This document shows, one piece after another, positions 9,086-13,497 of a stretch of 42,879 bases of DNA (positions are counted from its first letter, which is position 1; each line of letters begins with the position of its first letter). The position numbers and the translations under genes are program-made. The stretch lies in the NCBI GenBank assembly GCA_945881835.1, contig CAMCVP010000017.1:1-42879 (forward strand), read 5' to 3'. The DNA is from Chryseobacterium gleum (lineage in GTDB: Bacteria > Bacteroidota > Bacteroidia > Flavobacteriales_D > Sanyastnellaceae). A model generated the notes under the pieces. It did not search any database. It was given only the letters and a program-made list of their open reading frames with translations, and was not told the origin of the DNA.

Positions 9086-9496
9086 TTACTTGAAAATTGA
9101 TTTAAGAATAGGAAGCGACTTTCTGCTTTGATAAACAACAATGATGTTGCAGATGAATGTTGCAACAGCAAGGTAGAATACCTTTCCACCATCTCCTTTC
9201 ACATCAACACCTAAAATCATGAGGTGCGTAATTAGCGCCCCGGTAATTAAACCAAGCGAAAGCGCAGCACCGTAATGACTGTTCTTCGGCCACAATAAAA
9301 GCAATCCAGCAATCAATTCACCAACTCCGGTTCCAATACGTCCGTAGGGCTCCATGACATGATTCCAATGCATGTAATCGTCAATAGACTTGAAAATATA
9401 AATGGAAACTTCAGCTCCAGAGAACTTAAAGAATAGTGTTTGCAGCAGAATAACTGCTGGGAAATAACGCAACGCGTGGGATAGAATACTTGACAT
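9086..9496 (-). CDS. DoxX-like four-helix membrane protein
   Basis: A 136-residue inner-membrane protein with four hydrophobic segments: about residues 10-26 (FPAVILLQTLFFKFSG), 55-73 (GTGVGELIAGLLLLWP), 78-95 (YGAALSLGLITGALITHLM) and 107-126. The GELIAGLLLL element and the FKFSGA end of helix 1 fit the DoxX/DoxD-like family, linked to redox and sulfur metabolism in some relatives. The open frame runs to 9598, but the extra residues are only a read-through of the hairpin array, so the ATG at 9496 is chosen. The stop is six bases before the DinB-like start: first gene of the DoxX-DinB-NRDE-ATP-grasp run. Confidence 0.82.
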   Translation of the reverse strand: MSSILSHALRYFPAVILLQTLFFKFSGAEVSIYIFKSIDDYMHWNHVMEPYGRIGTGVGELIAGLLLLWPKNSHYGAALSLGLITGALITHLMILGVDVKGDGGKVFYLAVATFICNIIVVYQSRKSLPILKSIFK

Positions 9497-9540: not shown

Positions 9541-9736
9541 CCTTCTTCGAAGGATGACACAACTCGTTGTGATGACAGCTTCGCTGATGACACAACACGT
9601 TGTGATGACAGCTTCGCTGATGACACGCTCGCGTGATGACACACTTCGTGCGATGGGTATCCGCATGGCGGTCATCACAACGAGTTGTGTCATCGGCTGC
9701 GCCGTCATCACGCGAAGCGTGTCATCCACGAAGTGG
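9541..9736. repeat. Array of 12 micro-hairpins with ATGA/TCAT spacers (array 1)
   Basis: Twelve tandem hairpins fill the space between two minus-strand genes. Spans (stem, loop): 9541-9553 (CCTTC, TTC); 9558-9571 (CACAAC, TC); 9576-9586 (CAGC, TTC); 9591-9604 (CACAAC, AC); 9609-9619 (CAGC, TTC); 9624-9635 (CACGC, TC); 9642-9650 (CAC, TTC); 9661-9671 (CCGC, ATG); 9676-9689 (CACAAC, GA); 9694-9704 (CGGC, TGC); 9709-9721 (CACGC, GAA); 9726-9736 (CCAC, GAA). The spacer is ATGA in the left part and its complement TCAT in the right part, so the array switches orientation near 9653-9660. Each arm pairs perfectly although arm sequences differ. The last hairpin touches the stop codon of the next gene. 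It has no coding role. Confidence 0.93.
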
Positions 9737-10042
9737 TTAGATGTAATTCGCCAAAAACGAATTATGCTCGTGACGCAAATCGTTAATGGTCTTCTCGAGC
9801 GTTGTGTAACGATCGCGAAGAACATCGTGTTCTTTCAGCGTTTCGGCATAGATGTGCTGCGCCAGTTCTTGTGTTTCGTTGCTTACTTTTTTCTCGAAAG
9901 AACCCAGGTCATGAGCCAATTGGTCAATGTTGTTGCGCTGAACAATGAACTGATTTTGGAAGTGTTCAACATTAGGTTTCAACTCGGCCTTTGATTCATA
10001 CATACCTGAAACATCTGAAAGGCGGTGGGTGTGAATTTGCAA
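9737..10042 (-). CDS. Small coiled-coil protein of unknown function
   Basis: About 101 residues, strongly helical and charged (NVEHFQNQFIVQRNNIDQLAHDLGSFEKKVSNETQEL ... is typical of the run), with heptad-like spacing from about residue 25 to 90 and no signal peptide or membrane segment. The start is uncertain: the longest frame uses TTG at 10042, the first ATG is at 10003, and the frame is open without an ATG back to 10088. Probably a cytoplasmic coiled-coil. The stop codon is flush against hairpin array 1, which could end its transcript. I do not recognise a family. Confidence 0.6.
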   Translation of the reverse strand: MQIHTHRLSDVSGMYESKAELKPNVEHFQNQFIVQRNNIDQLAHDLGSFEKKVSNETQELAQHIYAETLKEHDVLRDRYTTLEKTINDLRHEHNSFLANYI

Positions 10043-10246
10043 TTCTTGAAATGTGGAAGGTGTTGTGTGCTGATATAATTGTATGTGTTATTTGTTGAAT
10101 CAAAATTCATTTTATTATTGAAGAGGGGTTATGACGCAAGTCAAGATAGACGGTGAATGTTATCAATACACTCCGTAGAATTAATGATTCAATAATACGG
10201 TTTTGTGCATCTTTCAGACGTAATTTCGCCATTGCAAAATTTGTCA

Positions 10247-12835
10247 ATGGGAAACAGCTTCGGAAAAAAAATAGGTTCGCTTTTAGTGCTTGTTATTCTA
10301 TCGCTTTCTGCGAATTCCCAATGCATTGTTATCAATGAAGTCATGGTGAATGCCGCTGGTGCTTGCGATGGTGGCTGCACGCCAAGCACAAGTGAGTGGT
10401 TGGAATTATATAACACGTGCAGTACGCCGCAGGATATCTCTTGTTTCGTAATGACCGATGGAGATTTCGGTGTGACCTTTCCGGTAGGGACTATCATTCA
10501 GCCTTATAGTTTTTTTGTCATAGGATCTGCGAATTCTGGAGTTCCATTAAATCTTGATTTAGGCACTTGCGGCTGTACCTCTGGTCCGTCTTCTCAAGTT
10601 GGAATTTTTACCAATACAGCTGAGCAGTTGGTTTTTGCGAATTCTTCGGGGACAATTTTAGACGGGTTGTTTTGGGGCGGAGGTCAGTTCGTGCAAACAC
10701 CTTCGTTTACCACCGCCAATGGAATCGGCTGTCCAGATGTAACCATAGCTCTCTCCGATACTGATCCTGTTTTTACTTCGTTAGGTGGGCAGTCGAATAA
10801 CGACGGAGAGTCTATTTACAGAGAATGCGATGGAACGAACGTCTGGATTTCAGGAGGGAATGTCCCAACCCCCGGAACATCTAACTCTCCTTTCATTCCA
10901 ATTGTTTCAACACCAACAATTGTTCAACCTGGATGCGGAACAATCGCTTCCATTAGTGTGGCTGTTTCTGGGGGAGTTGGTCCGTTTACATATGAGTGGA
11001 TAGGCACAACGAACACCACTCCAATCATCGGAAATCTTCAACCTGGAAATTACACCGTGGCCATTACAGACCAGGGGCAATGTGGAACTCCGCAGTTGTA
11101 TACATACACCATTGTCGCCTCTCCGACAGATCCAGTTTTAGTATTAACCCCTTCATCGAGTTCTATTTGCGTTGGAGAGTCAACGACAATAGTTGCTAGT
11201 GGAAGTTCAAATTACGTTTGGAATGCAGATCCTACGCTGAATACAAACATTGGCGATATGGTCATTGCATCTCCAACGGTGACCACTACGTATGTCGCCA
11301 ACGCGAGCATAAACGGATGTTCACAAACCAATTCCATTACAATTGTTGTGAACGACTTTCCTGTTGCTACAGTCAATGCCAATTCACCTTTGTGTGAAGG
11401 AAATAGTTTGAATCTCACGGCGACGAATGTCGCTGGTGCCGCCTATGCTTGGAGTGGTCCGAATTTATTTTCCTCATTAAATCAAAATCCAAGTATTACT
11501 TCGGCAACACCTTTGGCCTCTGGGACATACACTTGCCAAGTGGGCTTGGGAACGTGTATTTCCACATACACGCTAGATGTGATTGTCGATGCACTTTCTC
11601 CTTCAATTATAAATCAAGCAGGTCCCTTTTGTATTTCCGATGCTGCATTCGATTTGAGTTCTCCGAATGAGCCAGGCGTATGGGGTGGATTGGGAGTAAC
11701 CAATACAACCACAGGATTGTTTCTGCCAAGTTCTGCGGGAGGAAATGTAAGCACCCTGATTACGTTTGACAGCGATAACTATTGCACTTCACCTTCAACC
11801 TTGAGTATTTCTGTGGCAGCAGCATTAGACGCTTCAATTTCATCACAAGTCCCTTTGTGTGTGAATGGAAATCCTGTCCAACTGCAAGTTGCAACTGCTG
11901 GCGGAACATGGAGCGGAAACGCCGTTAATTCAAGTGGAATGGTAAGTCCAGCTGCGCTCGGGGTTGGAACATTTCAAGCGATTTATACCCTAGCAGGAAG
12001 TTGCGGTGGAGCCGATACTATAACCGTTCAAGTGGTTCCCCTTCCACAATTTAATTTTACTTCGAATGTAACAACTGGGTGTGCGCCGTTGAATGTGCAA
12101 TTCAACAGCTCCTCTGCTTCAGCATTGTCTAGTTGCATTTGGAGCATCGATGGTCAGAATGTTGGAAATGGTTGTGGAAGTTTCAATTACAATTTTCAAT
12201 CTGCTGGATGTTTCACTGTTTCATTAACATCAACTGATGGAAACGGTTGTGTGAATTCCGTTTCTCAAACCGATTTAGTGTGTGTCGATTTATTTCCGGA
12301 AGCGGCTTTCCAATGGACACCCGTAACGCCTTCCTTGAATGCGCCGGAAGTTTCGTTTGTGAATTTGTCTTTGGGAAATACAACGAATCTTTGGAACATA
12401 AACGGCGTAGTGTCAACCAATGAAGACGTGCAATATTCTGTGTTAGATGCCACAGGAAGCACATTTGAAGCTTGCTTGGAAGTGTCTAATCAATATGGAT
12501 GCGCAGACTCTATTTGCTACACGATTTTCGTTAATCGTGAAGAAATAGTTTTTGTTCCGAATTCATTTTCACCAAACGACGATGGCATTAACGATGTCTT
12601 TTATCCAGTGTTATCTGGATTCAATTTGAATGAAATTCAATATGAATTTGGAATTTACAATCGATACGGTGAACGTATCTTCTATTCGCAAGATCCCGAA
12701 CAAGCTTGGATTGGTAACGCTTTCGGAAACGAATACTACGCGCAAATAGATGGCTACACCTGGACTTTGCGAATCATCACCTCTTCTTTCTCCGAACCCA
12801 ATGAACTAACCGGTTCGGTCGTTATCATCCGCTAG
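10247..12835 (+). CDS. Secreted lamin-tail-domain protein with type IX (type B, gliding-associated) sorting domain
   Basis: An 862-residue secreted protein. ATG 10247 is preferred over the upstream GTG 10205 because it places a normal signal peptide (GKKIGSLLVLVILSLSANSQ) at the start. The first mature segment (CIVINEVMVNAAG ... SEWLELYNTC ... FVMTDGDFGVTFPVGT) reads as a lamin-tail domain, an immunoglobulin-like fold common at the front of secreted Bacteroidota proteins. Beta repeats with GGTWSGNAV follow, then a PKD-like domain (FTSNVTTGCAPLNVQFNSS) and the sorting domain (FVPNSFSPNDDGINDVFYP ... IYNRYGERIFYS ... LTGSVVIIR). The C-terminal third is clearly paralogous to the protein at 3835. 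Hairpin array 2 begins nine bases after the stop. Confidence 0.88.
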   Translation: MGNSFGKKIGSLLVLVILSLSANSQCIVINEVMVNAAGACDGGCTPSTSEWLELYNTCSTPQDISCFVMTDGDFGVTFPVGTIIQPYSFFVIGSANSGVPLNLDLGTCGCTSGPSSQVGIFTNTAEQLVFANSSGTILDGLFWGGGQFVQTPSFTTANGIGCPDVTIALSDTDPVFTSLGGQSNNDGESIYRECDGTNVWISGGNVPTPGTSNSPFIPIVSTPTIVQPGCGTIASISVAVSGGVGPFTYEWIGTTNTTPIIGNLQPGNYTVAITDQGQCGTPQLYTYTIVASPTDPVLVLTPSSSSICVGESTTIVASGSSNYVWNADPTLNTNIGDMVIASPTVTTTYVANASINGCSQTNSITIVVNDFPVATVNANSPLCEGNSLNLTATNVAGAAYAWSGPNLFSSLNQNPSITSATPLASGTYTCQVGLGTCISTYTLDVIVDALSPSIINQAGPFCISDAAFDLSSPNEPGVWGGLGVTNTTTGLFLPSSAGGNVSTLITFDSDNYCTSPSTLSISVAAALDASISSQVPLCVNGNPVQLQVATAGGTWSGNAVNSSGMVSPAALGVGTFQAIYTLAGSCGGADTITVQVVPLPQFNFTSNVTTGCAPLNVQFNSSSASALSSCIWSIDGQNVGNGCGSFNYNFQSAGCFTVSLTSTDGNGCVNSVSQTDLVCVDLFPEAAFQWTPVTPSLNAPEVSFVNLSLGNTTNLWNINGVVSTNEDVQYSVLDATGSTFEACLEVSNQYGCADSICYTIFVNREEIVFVPNSFSPNDDGINDVFYPVLSGFNLNEIQYEFGIYNRYGERIFYSQDPEQAWIGNAFGNEYYAQIDGYTWTLRIITSSFSEPNELTGSVVIIR

Positions 12836-12843
12836 TTCGTCAT

Positions 12844-12941
12844 CACGAAGTGTCATCGCGCAGCGTCATCCGCACAGCGGTCATCACAACGTGTTGTGTC
12901 ATCCGCATAGCGGTCATCACGAAGTGTCATCCGCGAAGCGG
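12844..12941. repeat. Array of 7 micro-hairpins with TCAT spacers (array 2)
   Basis: Seven hairpins, all with an exact TCAT spacer: 12844-12852 (CAC, GAA); 12857-12865 (CGC, GCA); 12870-12880 (CCGC, ACA); 12885-12898 (CACAAC, GT); 12903-12913 (CCGC, ATA); 12918-12926 (CAC, GAA); 12931-12941 (CCGC, GAA). Each begins with C, ends with G and pairs without mismatch. The array fills essentially the whole gap between two convergent genes: it starts nine bases after one stop codon and ends one base before the other. Same design as array 1, in the right-hand orientation. Confidence 0.94.
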
Positions 12942-12942
12942 T

Positions 12943-13383
12943 CTATTTGATCATTTTTTTGAGATAATCCAAAATACTATCTTCCAACCCCGCCATATCG
13001 CTTAACTCAATTTCCAACGAACGCGTTGAATTAATGAGCTCAATGAGTGAAAGGAAAAGTGAAACACAGAAGAGAATGAGTGCAGTAGCAAAAGTGAATT
13101 CAGCGAAATTCATTTCTTCACGATAGATAAAATACATAGATGCAATGGCAAGCGCGAAACTAAGCACCCCAAATATCTGCATGTTTTTTATCAGCCTTAA
13201 TCGGAATTTTAAATTCTTAATTTGCGCATAGAGAAGTGCCGCTTCTTTCGGTTCACGGCCTTTGTAGCGGTCGTGAAGATTGCGAATAACATTGGCCAAG
13301 GCAAGAAATCGATTGGTATAGGCGAGCATAATTAAGCTGATCGCAGGAAACAACAATGCAGGGGTATTGATAGTTATGTCCAT
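12943..13383 (-). CDS. DUF2721-like membrane protein
   Basis: A 146-residue inner-membrane protein. The frame is open to 13479, but ATG 13383 is chosen because MDITINTPALLFPAISLIML followed by AYTNRFLALANVIRNLHDRY matches the conserved beginning of DUF2721 proteins; the upstream extension is a low-complexity run of TLYFTLYFT type. Hydrophobic segments lie at about 8-26, 72-90 and 96-118, with a charged cytoplasmic helix between the first and second (GREPKEAALLYAQIKNLKFRLRLIKN). Function of the family is unknown. It is divergent from the histidine kinase and convergent with the gliding-type gene across hairpin array 2. Confidence 0.75.
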   Translation of the reverse strand: MDITINTPALLFPAISLIMLAYTNRFLALANVIRNLHDRYKGREPKEAALLYAQIKNLKFRLRLIKNMQIFGVLSFALAIASMYFIYREEMNFAEFTFATALILFCVSLFLSLIELINSTRSLEIELSDMAGLEDSILDYLKKMIK

Positions 13384-13497
13384 TTTTACAATAAGTATTA
13401 CAAATGAAGTGAAATATAGTGTGAAATATAATGTGAAAAGGAGAGGAATCAACATTAAATTAGCAAACAACATTATCACGCTATTGAAGCAGACGCC

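Follow-up and report, generated by a model that had tools for sequence, protein, structure and literature searches.

The window analysed here, a stretch of DNA of 42,879 nucleotides, carries two strings of very small hairpins separated by exact tetranucleotide tags (Table 1). The right end of array 1 abuts the TAA stop codon (9739-9737) of the minus-strand gene 9737-10042, and 44 nt separate the array from the next minus-strand gene (9086-9496), if the start given by our own gene caller is taken. Array 2 lies between two convergent genes, 10205-12835 and 12943-13473, and takes up the 107 nt that separate them; for the array 2 gene, relatives are present in genomes G009 and G015. The placing of the DNA in Bacteroidota is based on the CHU_C type IX domain encoded in the window and on the preliminary description. 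This second array was absent from the preliminary description of the window. Searches of the window against Rfam, at gathering score, and for tRNAs each returned 0 matches. Readings of array 1 as a CRISPR, riboswitch, tRNA or attenuator were rejected on these results and on the lack of a repeat-plus-unique-spacer layout. A coding repeat was likewise rejected, as open reading frames cross the array only mechanically and the unit lengths vary out of frame.

Table 1. Hairpin arrays of the window and the genes that flank them (window positions; a dot marks a feature without strand)
Feature	Position	Strand	Basis
Mini-hairpin array 1, ATGA/TCAT class, 12 hairpins, inward-facing halves	9541..9736	.	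sequence, fold
Array 1, left half: 7 hairpins and 6 ATGA tags	9541..9652	+	sequence
Array 1, centre ATGGGTAT (8 nt), switch of tag orientation	9653..9660	.	sequence
Array 1, right half: 5 hairpins and 4 TCAT tags	9661..9736	-	sequence
Array 2, ATGA/TCAT class, 7 hairpins, TCAT tags only	12840..12941	-	sequence
Gene downstream of array 1; weak MauE-like Pfam match, below cut-off	9086..9496	-	own gene caller, Pfam
Gene with stop codon abutting array 1; no Pfam family above cut-off	9737..10042	-	sequence, Pfam
Gene upstream of array 2; lamin-tail, PKD and CHU_C type IX secretion domains	10205..12835	+	Pfam
Convergent gene on far side of array 2	12943..13473	-	own gene caller

Array 1 had been described as twelve perfect hairpins, mirror-like about a centre at 9653-9660 and spaced by ATGA to its left and TCAT to its right. 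The spacers were borne out, with six ATGA and four TCAT tags. The left half consists, in order, of CCTTCTTCGAAGG, CACAACTCGTTGTG, CAGCTTCGCTG, CACAACACGTTGTG, CAGCTTCGCTG, CACGCTCGCGTG and CACACTTCGTGCG, and the right half of CCGCATGGCGG, CACAACGAGTTGTG, CGGCTGCGCCG, CACGCGAAGCGTG and CCACGAAGTGG. All twelve hairpins are therefore present, but only 11 of the 12 stems are perfect, the exception being the seventh, CACACTTCGTGCG (9640-9652), which has one A-C mismatch. The mirror likeness lies in the tag orientation and in the pairing of the two halves with each other (53-nt arms, 79%), not in the order of the hairpins. Folded as DNA, the array has a z score of -7.5, and as RNA an energy of -107.3 kcal/mol and a z score of -8.8, with 0 of 200 shuffles as low in either case. 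A single long foldback was rejected as the shared design, since array 1 folds in this way but many other arrays are one-directional or have very unequal halves.

We searched the 2.53-Mb genome that carries the window (G000) with the pattern GATGAC-N6..14-GATGAC, which demands no pairing and whose whole-genome count is the unbiased figure for density. It gave 113 forward and 91 reverse matches, 204 in all, against 1 and 7, or 8, for the backward-read control. In 493,640 sampled bases of G000, a class-free chain detector, which asks for an exact tag and hairpins of at least three pairs, picked out 48 arrays whose tags are 4 nt long and 6 whose tag has 3 nt; Markov shuffles (one per stretch) gave no array. 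The first 20 stretches sampled comprised nine picked for known arrays, two for a Y1 gene and nine arbitrary ones, and four later stretches were picked for arrays, so that the sampled densities are not genome averages; the nine arbitrary stretches (180,000 bases) held three array matches. A scan for runs of hairpins in 21 stretches found 39 runs, not all of them arrays of this design, compared with 7 in Markov shuffles. By our crude gene caller, the sampled arrays of G000 occupied 40 gaps, while 4 arrays lay in called genes and 4 at stretch edges. Across six sampled genomes the tag classes were ATGA/TCAT, TCAA/TTGA, ATTC/GAAT, AGA/TCT, AGG/CCT, GAGG/CCTC (one array) and CTTA/TAAG (one array; this class is mainly one site with varying spacers). 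A 'CGGA' chain picked by the class-free detector is probably not an array of this design.

The classes share a unit design, an exact tag of 3-4 nt and a hairpin of 9-15 nt that is nearly always perfect. When inserts were taken from tag to tag with no demand for pairing, perfect pairing was observed in 310 of 332 ATGA, 183 of 196 TCAA and 50 of 54 ATTC inserts. Counting each distinct insert once, the fractions were 94/115, 56/67 and 26/30, compared with 2.6%, 3.1% and 4.1%, respectively, when the inner bases were shuffled; covariation of the arms, which the preliminary description had suggested looking for, is therefore present. Most stem positions are occupied by two to four Watson-Crick types. 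At position 2 of the ATGA 11-mers, for example, all 34 distinct units are paired (AT in 12, CG in 17 and GC in 5), where independent columns would give 40%. Many sites and several species share words such as CACAACACGTTGTG, CCTTCTTCGAAGG, CCGCGGAGCGG, CACTTCGTG and CCGTTCCGG. The proposal that pairing rather than sequence is kept consequently holds in part: the arms vary while pairing is held, but words recur across sites and species and the loop is strongly constrained. Opposed neighbours of the same class within 150 nt of each other faced inward ('><') in 37 of 37 cases (15 ATGA, 18 TCAA, 3 AGA and 1 AGG), and many arrays run in one direction only. Nine of the 15 ATGA-class centres listed are CGCTCCGCGAAGCGG or its complement, array 1 not being one of them and two of the nine being orthologous; this common centre suggests that the ATGA arrays had a common founder.

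This design has much in common with REP, BIME and REPIN elements, which the available text of four reports (PMC3733652, PMC6006769, PMC8266576, PMC12306157) describes as a foot tag on a hairpin, present in many intergenic copies, inverted pairs and clusters, with some copies within 15 nt of a stop codon and with alternative complementary stem bases within a family. The arrays likewise have many intergenic copies (204 against 8 control matches) and inverted unit pairs (37/37 inward), though many are single-direction. In contrast, REP tags are GTAG (GTRG) or CGTC, whereas the arrays carry ATGA, TCAA, ATTC, AGA, AGG, CTTA or GAGG, and in place of a stem conserved within the family the 306 oriented units of the ATGA class comprise 102 distinct ones and the 147 of the TCAA class 53, though many words recur. 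The arrays further differ from REPs in their mostly 3-6-bp stems, their long head-to-tail strings and the several classes that occupy one site between species. A cognate TnpA-REP (RAYT) was not found for them; at four of six loci with an IS200-type Y1 gene, a TCAA or ATTC array lies upstream. Filed as REP, the arrays fail two of the defining features tested, the tag letters and the conserved stem. We therefore refer to them as a new, BIME-like variant and not as REP, and array 1 would best be assigned to a family of intergenic hairpin arrays that resembles REP and BIME elements. Hairpin elements of fungal and sponge mitochondria are also mobile-looking intergenic mini-hairpins confined to closely related species, but they are organellar and, as far as the available text of the report goes, have no fixed short tag between tandem hairpins (PMC2800124). 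The TAACTGA repeats differ from the arrays in that the text available to us presents them as heptamer tandems (PMC4679880). The preliminary description knew of no named repeat of this design, and the accessible portions of the literature searched likewise contained neither a named repeat nor a description of a tagged mini-hairpin design.

The arrays are concentrated at gene ends. Counted over five genomes and over gaps no shorter than 40 nt, arrays occurred in 26 of the 63 convergent gaps, 42 of the 187 codirectional ones and 12 of the 103 divergent ones, an enrichment in convergent gaps relative to the rest (p = 2e-4). Where a tag lay within 40 nt of a gene end, the first perfect hairpin (at least 3 pairs) began -6 to +4 nt from the stop in 49 of 69 cases, a few of which may be chance hairpins. 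In 27 of 42 codirectional gaps, the start of the next gene was farther from the array than the stop of the preceding one. We also searched for U-tract terminators with a finder that is, like the gene caller, our own and crude. In convergent gaps these were detected at 5 of 54 gene ends with arrays, compared with 32 of 78 without (p = 6e-5); in codirectional gaps the difference (6/46 with arrays, 44/204 without) was not significant. The low count of 5/54 also separates the arrays from intrinsic terminators, in which a U-tract follows a GC-rich hairpin. Across the five genomes, codirectional gaps held 28 single-direction arrays, orthologous sites included, and 22 of these presented the right-hand ('<') type on the transcript; for G000 alone the figure was 9 of 10. 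A further 18 codirectional gaps have both directions. This transcript-strand bias, for which an element acting only as DNA would have no need, speaks for some link to transcription and against a purely strand-blind element.

These observations bear on the suggestion, made in the preliminary description, that the hairpins could be terminators. The gene-end position and the few U-tract terminators in convergent array gaps lend support to a possible terminator or 3'-end role. A role retained at the gene end could be that a string of hairpins behind the stop codon or codons stops or trims transcripts, and between convergent genes the array may separate the two, replacing a U-tract terminator. A REP/BIME-like family with such a putative 3'-end role is our best guess from the sequence, held with belief and doubt in about equal measure. 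Against it stand an array-free gene junction in genome G007 (see below), the lack of a significant terminator difference in codirectional gaps and the arrays in 12 divergent gaps. According to the available text of one report, REPs within 15 nt of a stop codon stall ribosomes in Escherichia coli (PMC12306157), so a translational effect is another possible role of the arrays.

We compared 48 orthologous gaps between six regions of G000 and up to seven relatives. In nine gaps both G000 and one or more relatives carry an array, the remaining 39 are array-free in G000 and in every relative, and none is discordant; the six regions are the window, four chosen for arrays and one arbitrary, so that four of six were array-picked, and of the 39 array-free gaps 2 are convergent and 15 are at least 100 nt long. 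At the level of genome pairs, in which species pairs are not independent, arrays were scored in both members for 26, in G000 only for 7, in the relative only for 0 and in neither for 115. On reading, the seven pairs scored as G000 only contained array sequence that was short, of AGG type with few exact tags, or interrupted by N. The tag class differed in 10 of the 26 pairs and in 5 of the 9 gaps. At the array 1 site, ATGA/TCAT units in G000 correspond to TCC...GGA hairpins with CTTA-like, partly varying spacers in G001, G003, G004 and G006; at the array 2 site, TCAT units occur in G000, G002, G004 and G008 and ATTC units in G001, G003, G005 and G006. The AGA and AGG classes differ by one letter, and a change of tag instead of a replacement may explain such cases. 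Since, in the gaps compared, class differences are seen only at shared array sites and gaps that are array-free in G000 are array-free in the relatives, the sites would either be landing pads or be kept by selection. We put forward, tentatively and with doubt outweighing conviction, that the arrays constitute a new bacterial repeat system in which interchangeable mini-hairpin words and a class tag occupy fixed gene-end sites. The class would be overwritten in place while the site stays occupied, and what is inherited would be the architecture (tag, foldability, inward polarity and site) and not the sequence. If such overwriting occurs, what selection or a copying machine reads would be a row of small hairpins as such, whatever their sequence, and this would be unusual for a genetic element.

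Within a site, unit number and order change rapidly. The TCAA site beside L035:15457 holds from 8 to 25 units in five genomes, and in G006 it has a three-unit period, with higher-order repeats of three units. In G007 the same gene pair is convergent, with 13 nt between the stops and no array, this junction being the only empty site obtained; an array is therefore not needed there. Where stop codons abut an array, the array may just have been inserted into a very short gap.

The distribution of the family was assessed with the ATGA tag pattern in 40 genomes. Of the nine genomes examined from the genus, seven (G000-G006) showed a strong excess over the reversed control, G008 showed a weak one (6 + 10 matches, control 0 + 2) and G007 showed none. 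Some excess is thus present in eight of nine genus genomes, and outside this genus no strong excess was found. Sampling of 216,393 bases of G007 yielded no array and of 178,050 bases of G008 one weak AGA chain, and no arrays of this design were found in 20 genomes outside the genus (one stretch of 3-20 kb each). A search of viral contigs with one exact 24-mer unit gave 0 matches. In a wider contig scan, in which our own genus was perhaps omitted, at least 115 pattern-matching stretches were judged to be chance, as they were single matches in many unrelated taxa. Separately, four genomes of other genera in the same family (G010, G015, G017 and G018) showed a modest excess of the ATGA pattern over the reversed control, and sparse arrays are possible there.

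A burst restricted to one genus, seen neither in the 20 outside stretches nor in the G007 sample, is also what purely selfish REP-like repeats might produce. Such repeats would spread via DNA replication or a single-strand nuclease, would have no host function and would lie next to stop codons as insertions elsewhere were lost. The fast change of unit number and order, including the three-unit higher-order repeats of G006, agrees with this account, as does the 13-nt junction of G007, which works without an array, so that an array can fill a working junction. The absence of any discordant gap among the 48, despite the class differences, and the scarcity of U-tract terminators in convergent array gaps argue the other way. 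We place a selfish repeat without function close behind the 3'-end role, as a serious possibility that falls short of an even chance.

The loops bear on whether DNA or RNA is the form that matters. A three-base loop is present in 603 of 668 units (229 distinct) and lacking in 65. Among these triloop units, which include related copies, 458 of 603 have a GNA or TNC loop, compared with 419 of 1950 background hairpins with a loop of this size, taken from G000 outside its arrays. On one strand or the other, the apex C(GNA)G occurs in 370 of all 603 triloop units and in 99 of 198 distinct ones, compared with 117 of 1950 in the background. Other loops than GNA/TNC are found in 77 of the 198 distinct triloop units, and the ATTC and AGG classes adhere less closely to the loop rule. 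A GNA loop on two G-C pairs is reported, in the available text of one study, to form an exceptionally stable, nuclease-resistant mini-hairpin of DNA, GCGAAGC melting at 78 C (PMC4686876). The array units resemble these mini-hairpins in the GNA loop closed by C-G and in the short stem, but the mini-hairpins are described there as short DNA fragments and aptamer parts, and the arrays are chromosomal strings of up to about two dozen. Because the preferred apex is that of an ultra-stable DNA mini-hairpin, we infer that selection or copying acts on single-stranded DNA. This weighs against regarding the arrays as RNA elements, that is, as transcribed 3'-UTR hairpins that protect or process mRNA and for which the DNA form is irrelevant. 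The location behind stop codons, the orientation bias of single-direction arrays relative to transcription and the very stable RNA fold of the whole of array 1 (-107.3 kcal/mol, z -8.8) would all suit RNA elements; the stem mismatches on the ATGA strand (22, including 2 G-T and 8 A-C) are too few to choose between DNA and RNA. We consider this reading, which overlaps in part with our best explanation, a real possibility, though less likely than not.

Tyrosine (Y1) transposases offer a candidate for the copying machinery. Two Y1 genes are present in G000 and six across the nine genus genomes, in four of them; the array-rich genomes G002, G003 and G005 gave no Y1 match. Both Y1 proteins of G000 match the IS200 model and solved IS608-type transposases, whereas against the REP_Tyr model the L002 protein scored 23 bits, with a cut-off of 80, and the L001 protein was not listed. 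An array lies just upstream at four of the six loci, in different surroundings within each clade: a TCAA/TTGA array in clade A (L001 in G000 and L053 in G006) and an ATTC array in clade B (L002 in G000 and L056 in G006). Within the sequence analysed for them, L054 and L055 lack an array, and none of the six loci yielded one of the ATGA class. Clade A is flanked by its own end-like hairpins, GCCCCCA..TGGGGG, which are longer, GC-rich and unlike the array units. Twelve such hairpins occur in the sample (at sites including L039:4963, L043:8391 and 9036, and L191:3163), 7 of them no more than 200 nt from a detected array, a zone that takes in 27% of intergenic bases; two more are found in a G003 gap with a short array. 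Elements of IS200/IS605 type resemble the arrays in having a tetranucleotide beside a DNA hairpin, and such Y1 genes adjoin some arrays, but in the end-hairpin comparison, which covers clade A, the array units do not look like the terminal hairpins, as they would in IS200/IS605 ends or MITEs.

If the arrays were REPs that the genome's own Y1 (HuH) transposases mobilise, a REPtron, the recurrence of upstream TCAA/TTGA or ATTC arrays in two clades and in different places would be accounted for, and the tag 5' of the hairpin foot is the layout read by TnpA-REP, as the available text of two reports has it (PMC6006769, PMC8266576). Yet the proteins are of IS200 type and score far below the REP_Tyr cut-off, clade A has its own end hairpins and may only land at arrays, G003 is 96% complete and has 67 pattern matches with no Y1 match, and the six loci lack ATGA arrays. 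Mobilisation by these enzymes is accordingly improbable. Of the parasitic REP-type repeat copied by a transposase that the preliminary description had considered, the REP-like reading fits best, and the copying by a transposase is putative.

Finally, an assembly or chance artefact has a negligible probability: N runs lie inside some arrays of G001 (L173/L207, L193 and L234) and contig G001:C16 ends in an array (L180), but the same design, sites and words occur in several separate assemblies, and shuffles gave 0 arrays. Draft assemblies do break at arrays, as at these points in G001, and array sizes there are lower bounds.

For the preferred REP/BIME-like family with a 3'-end role, a plausible origin is that the first units were hairpins of single-stranded DNA and came in as an inverted pair, in the manner of a REPIN. 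Arrays could then grow and shrink via slippage or unequal exchange over identical tags, and pairing would persist because only units that fold are copied or kept. The arrays would provide a test case for the reading of single-stranded DNA hairpins, for hairpin-based gene-end insulation without U-tracts and for REP-like repeats beyond GTAG. A motif search that relies on GTAG or on a conserved stem would overlook them.

Several further observations were made in the sampled stretches. In the REARRANGEMENT case, the gene at about L189:15030-15835 (G000:C21) is inverted in G000 relative to G001, G003, G004 and G006. The arrays that flank it belong to the ATGA class in G000 and read as AGG in G001 and G004; with an array on either side, an inversion of this kind would be possible. 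In another genus, tandem CTAGTCACTAGTCGT-type repeats unlike the arrays lie at both ends of a contig (L222, G019:C1; 48-275 and 19584-19784), the sole detector pick among the 20 outside-genus stretches. In the L035 region, the identity of G001, G003, G004 and G006 to G000 ranges from 85% to 96-97%, as if homologous recombination had taken place between species.
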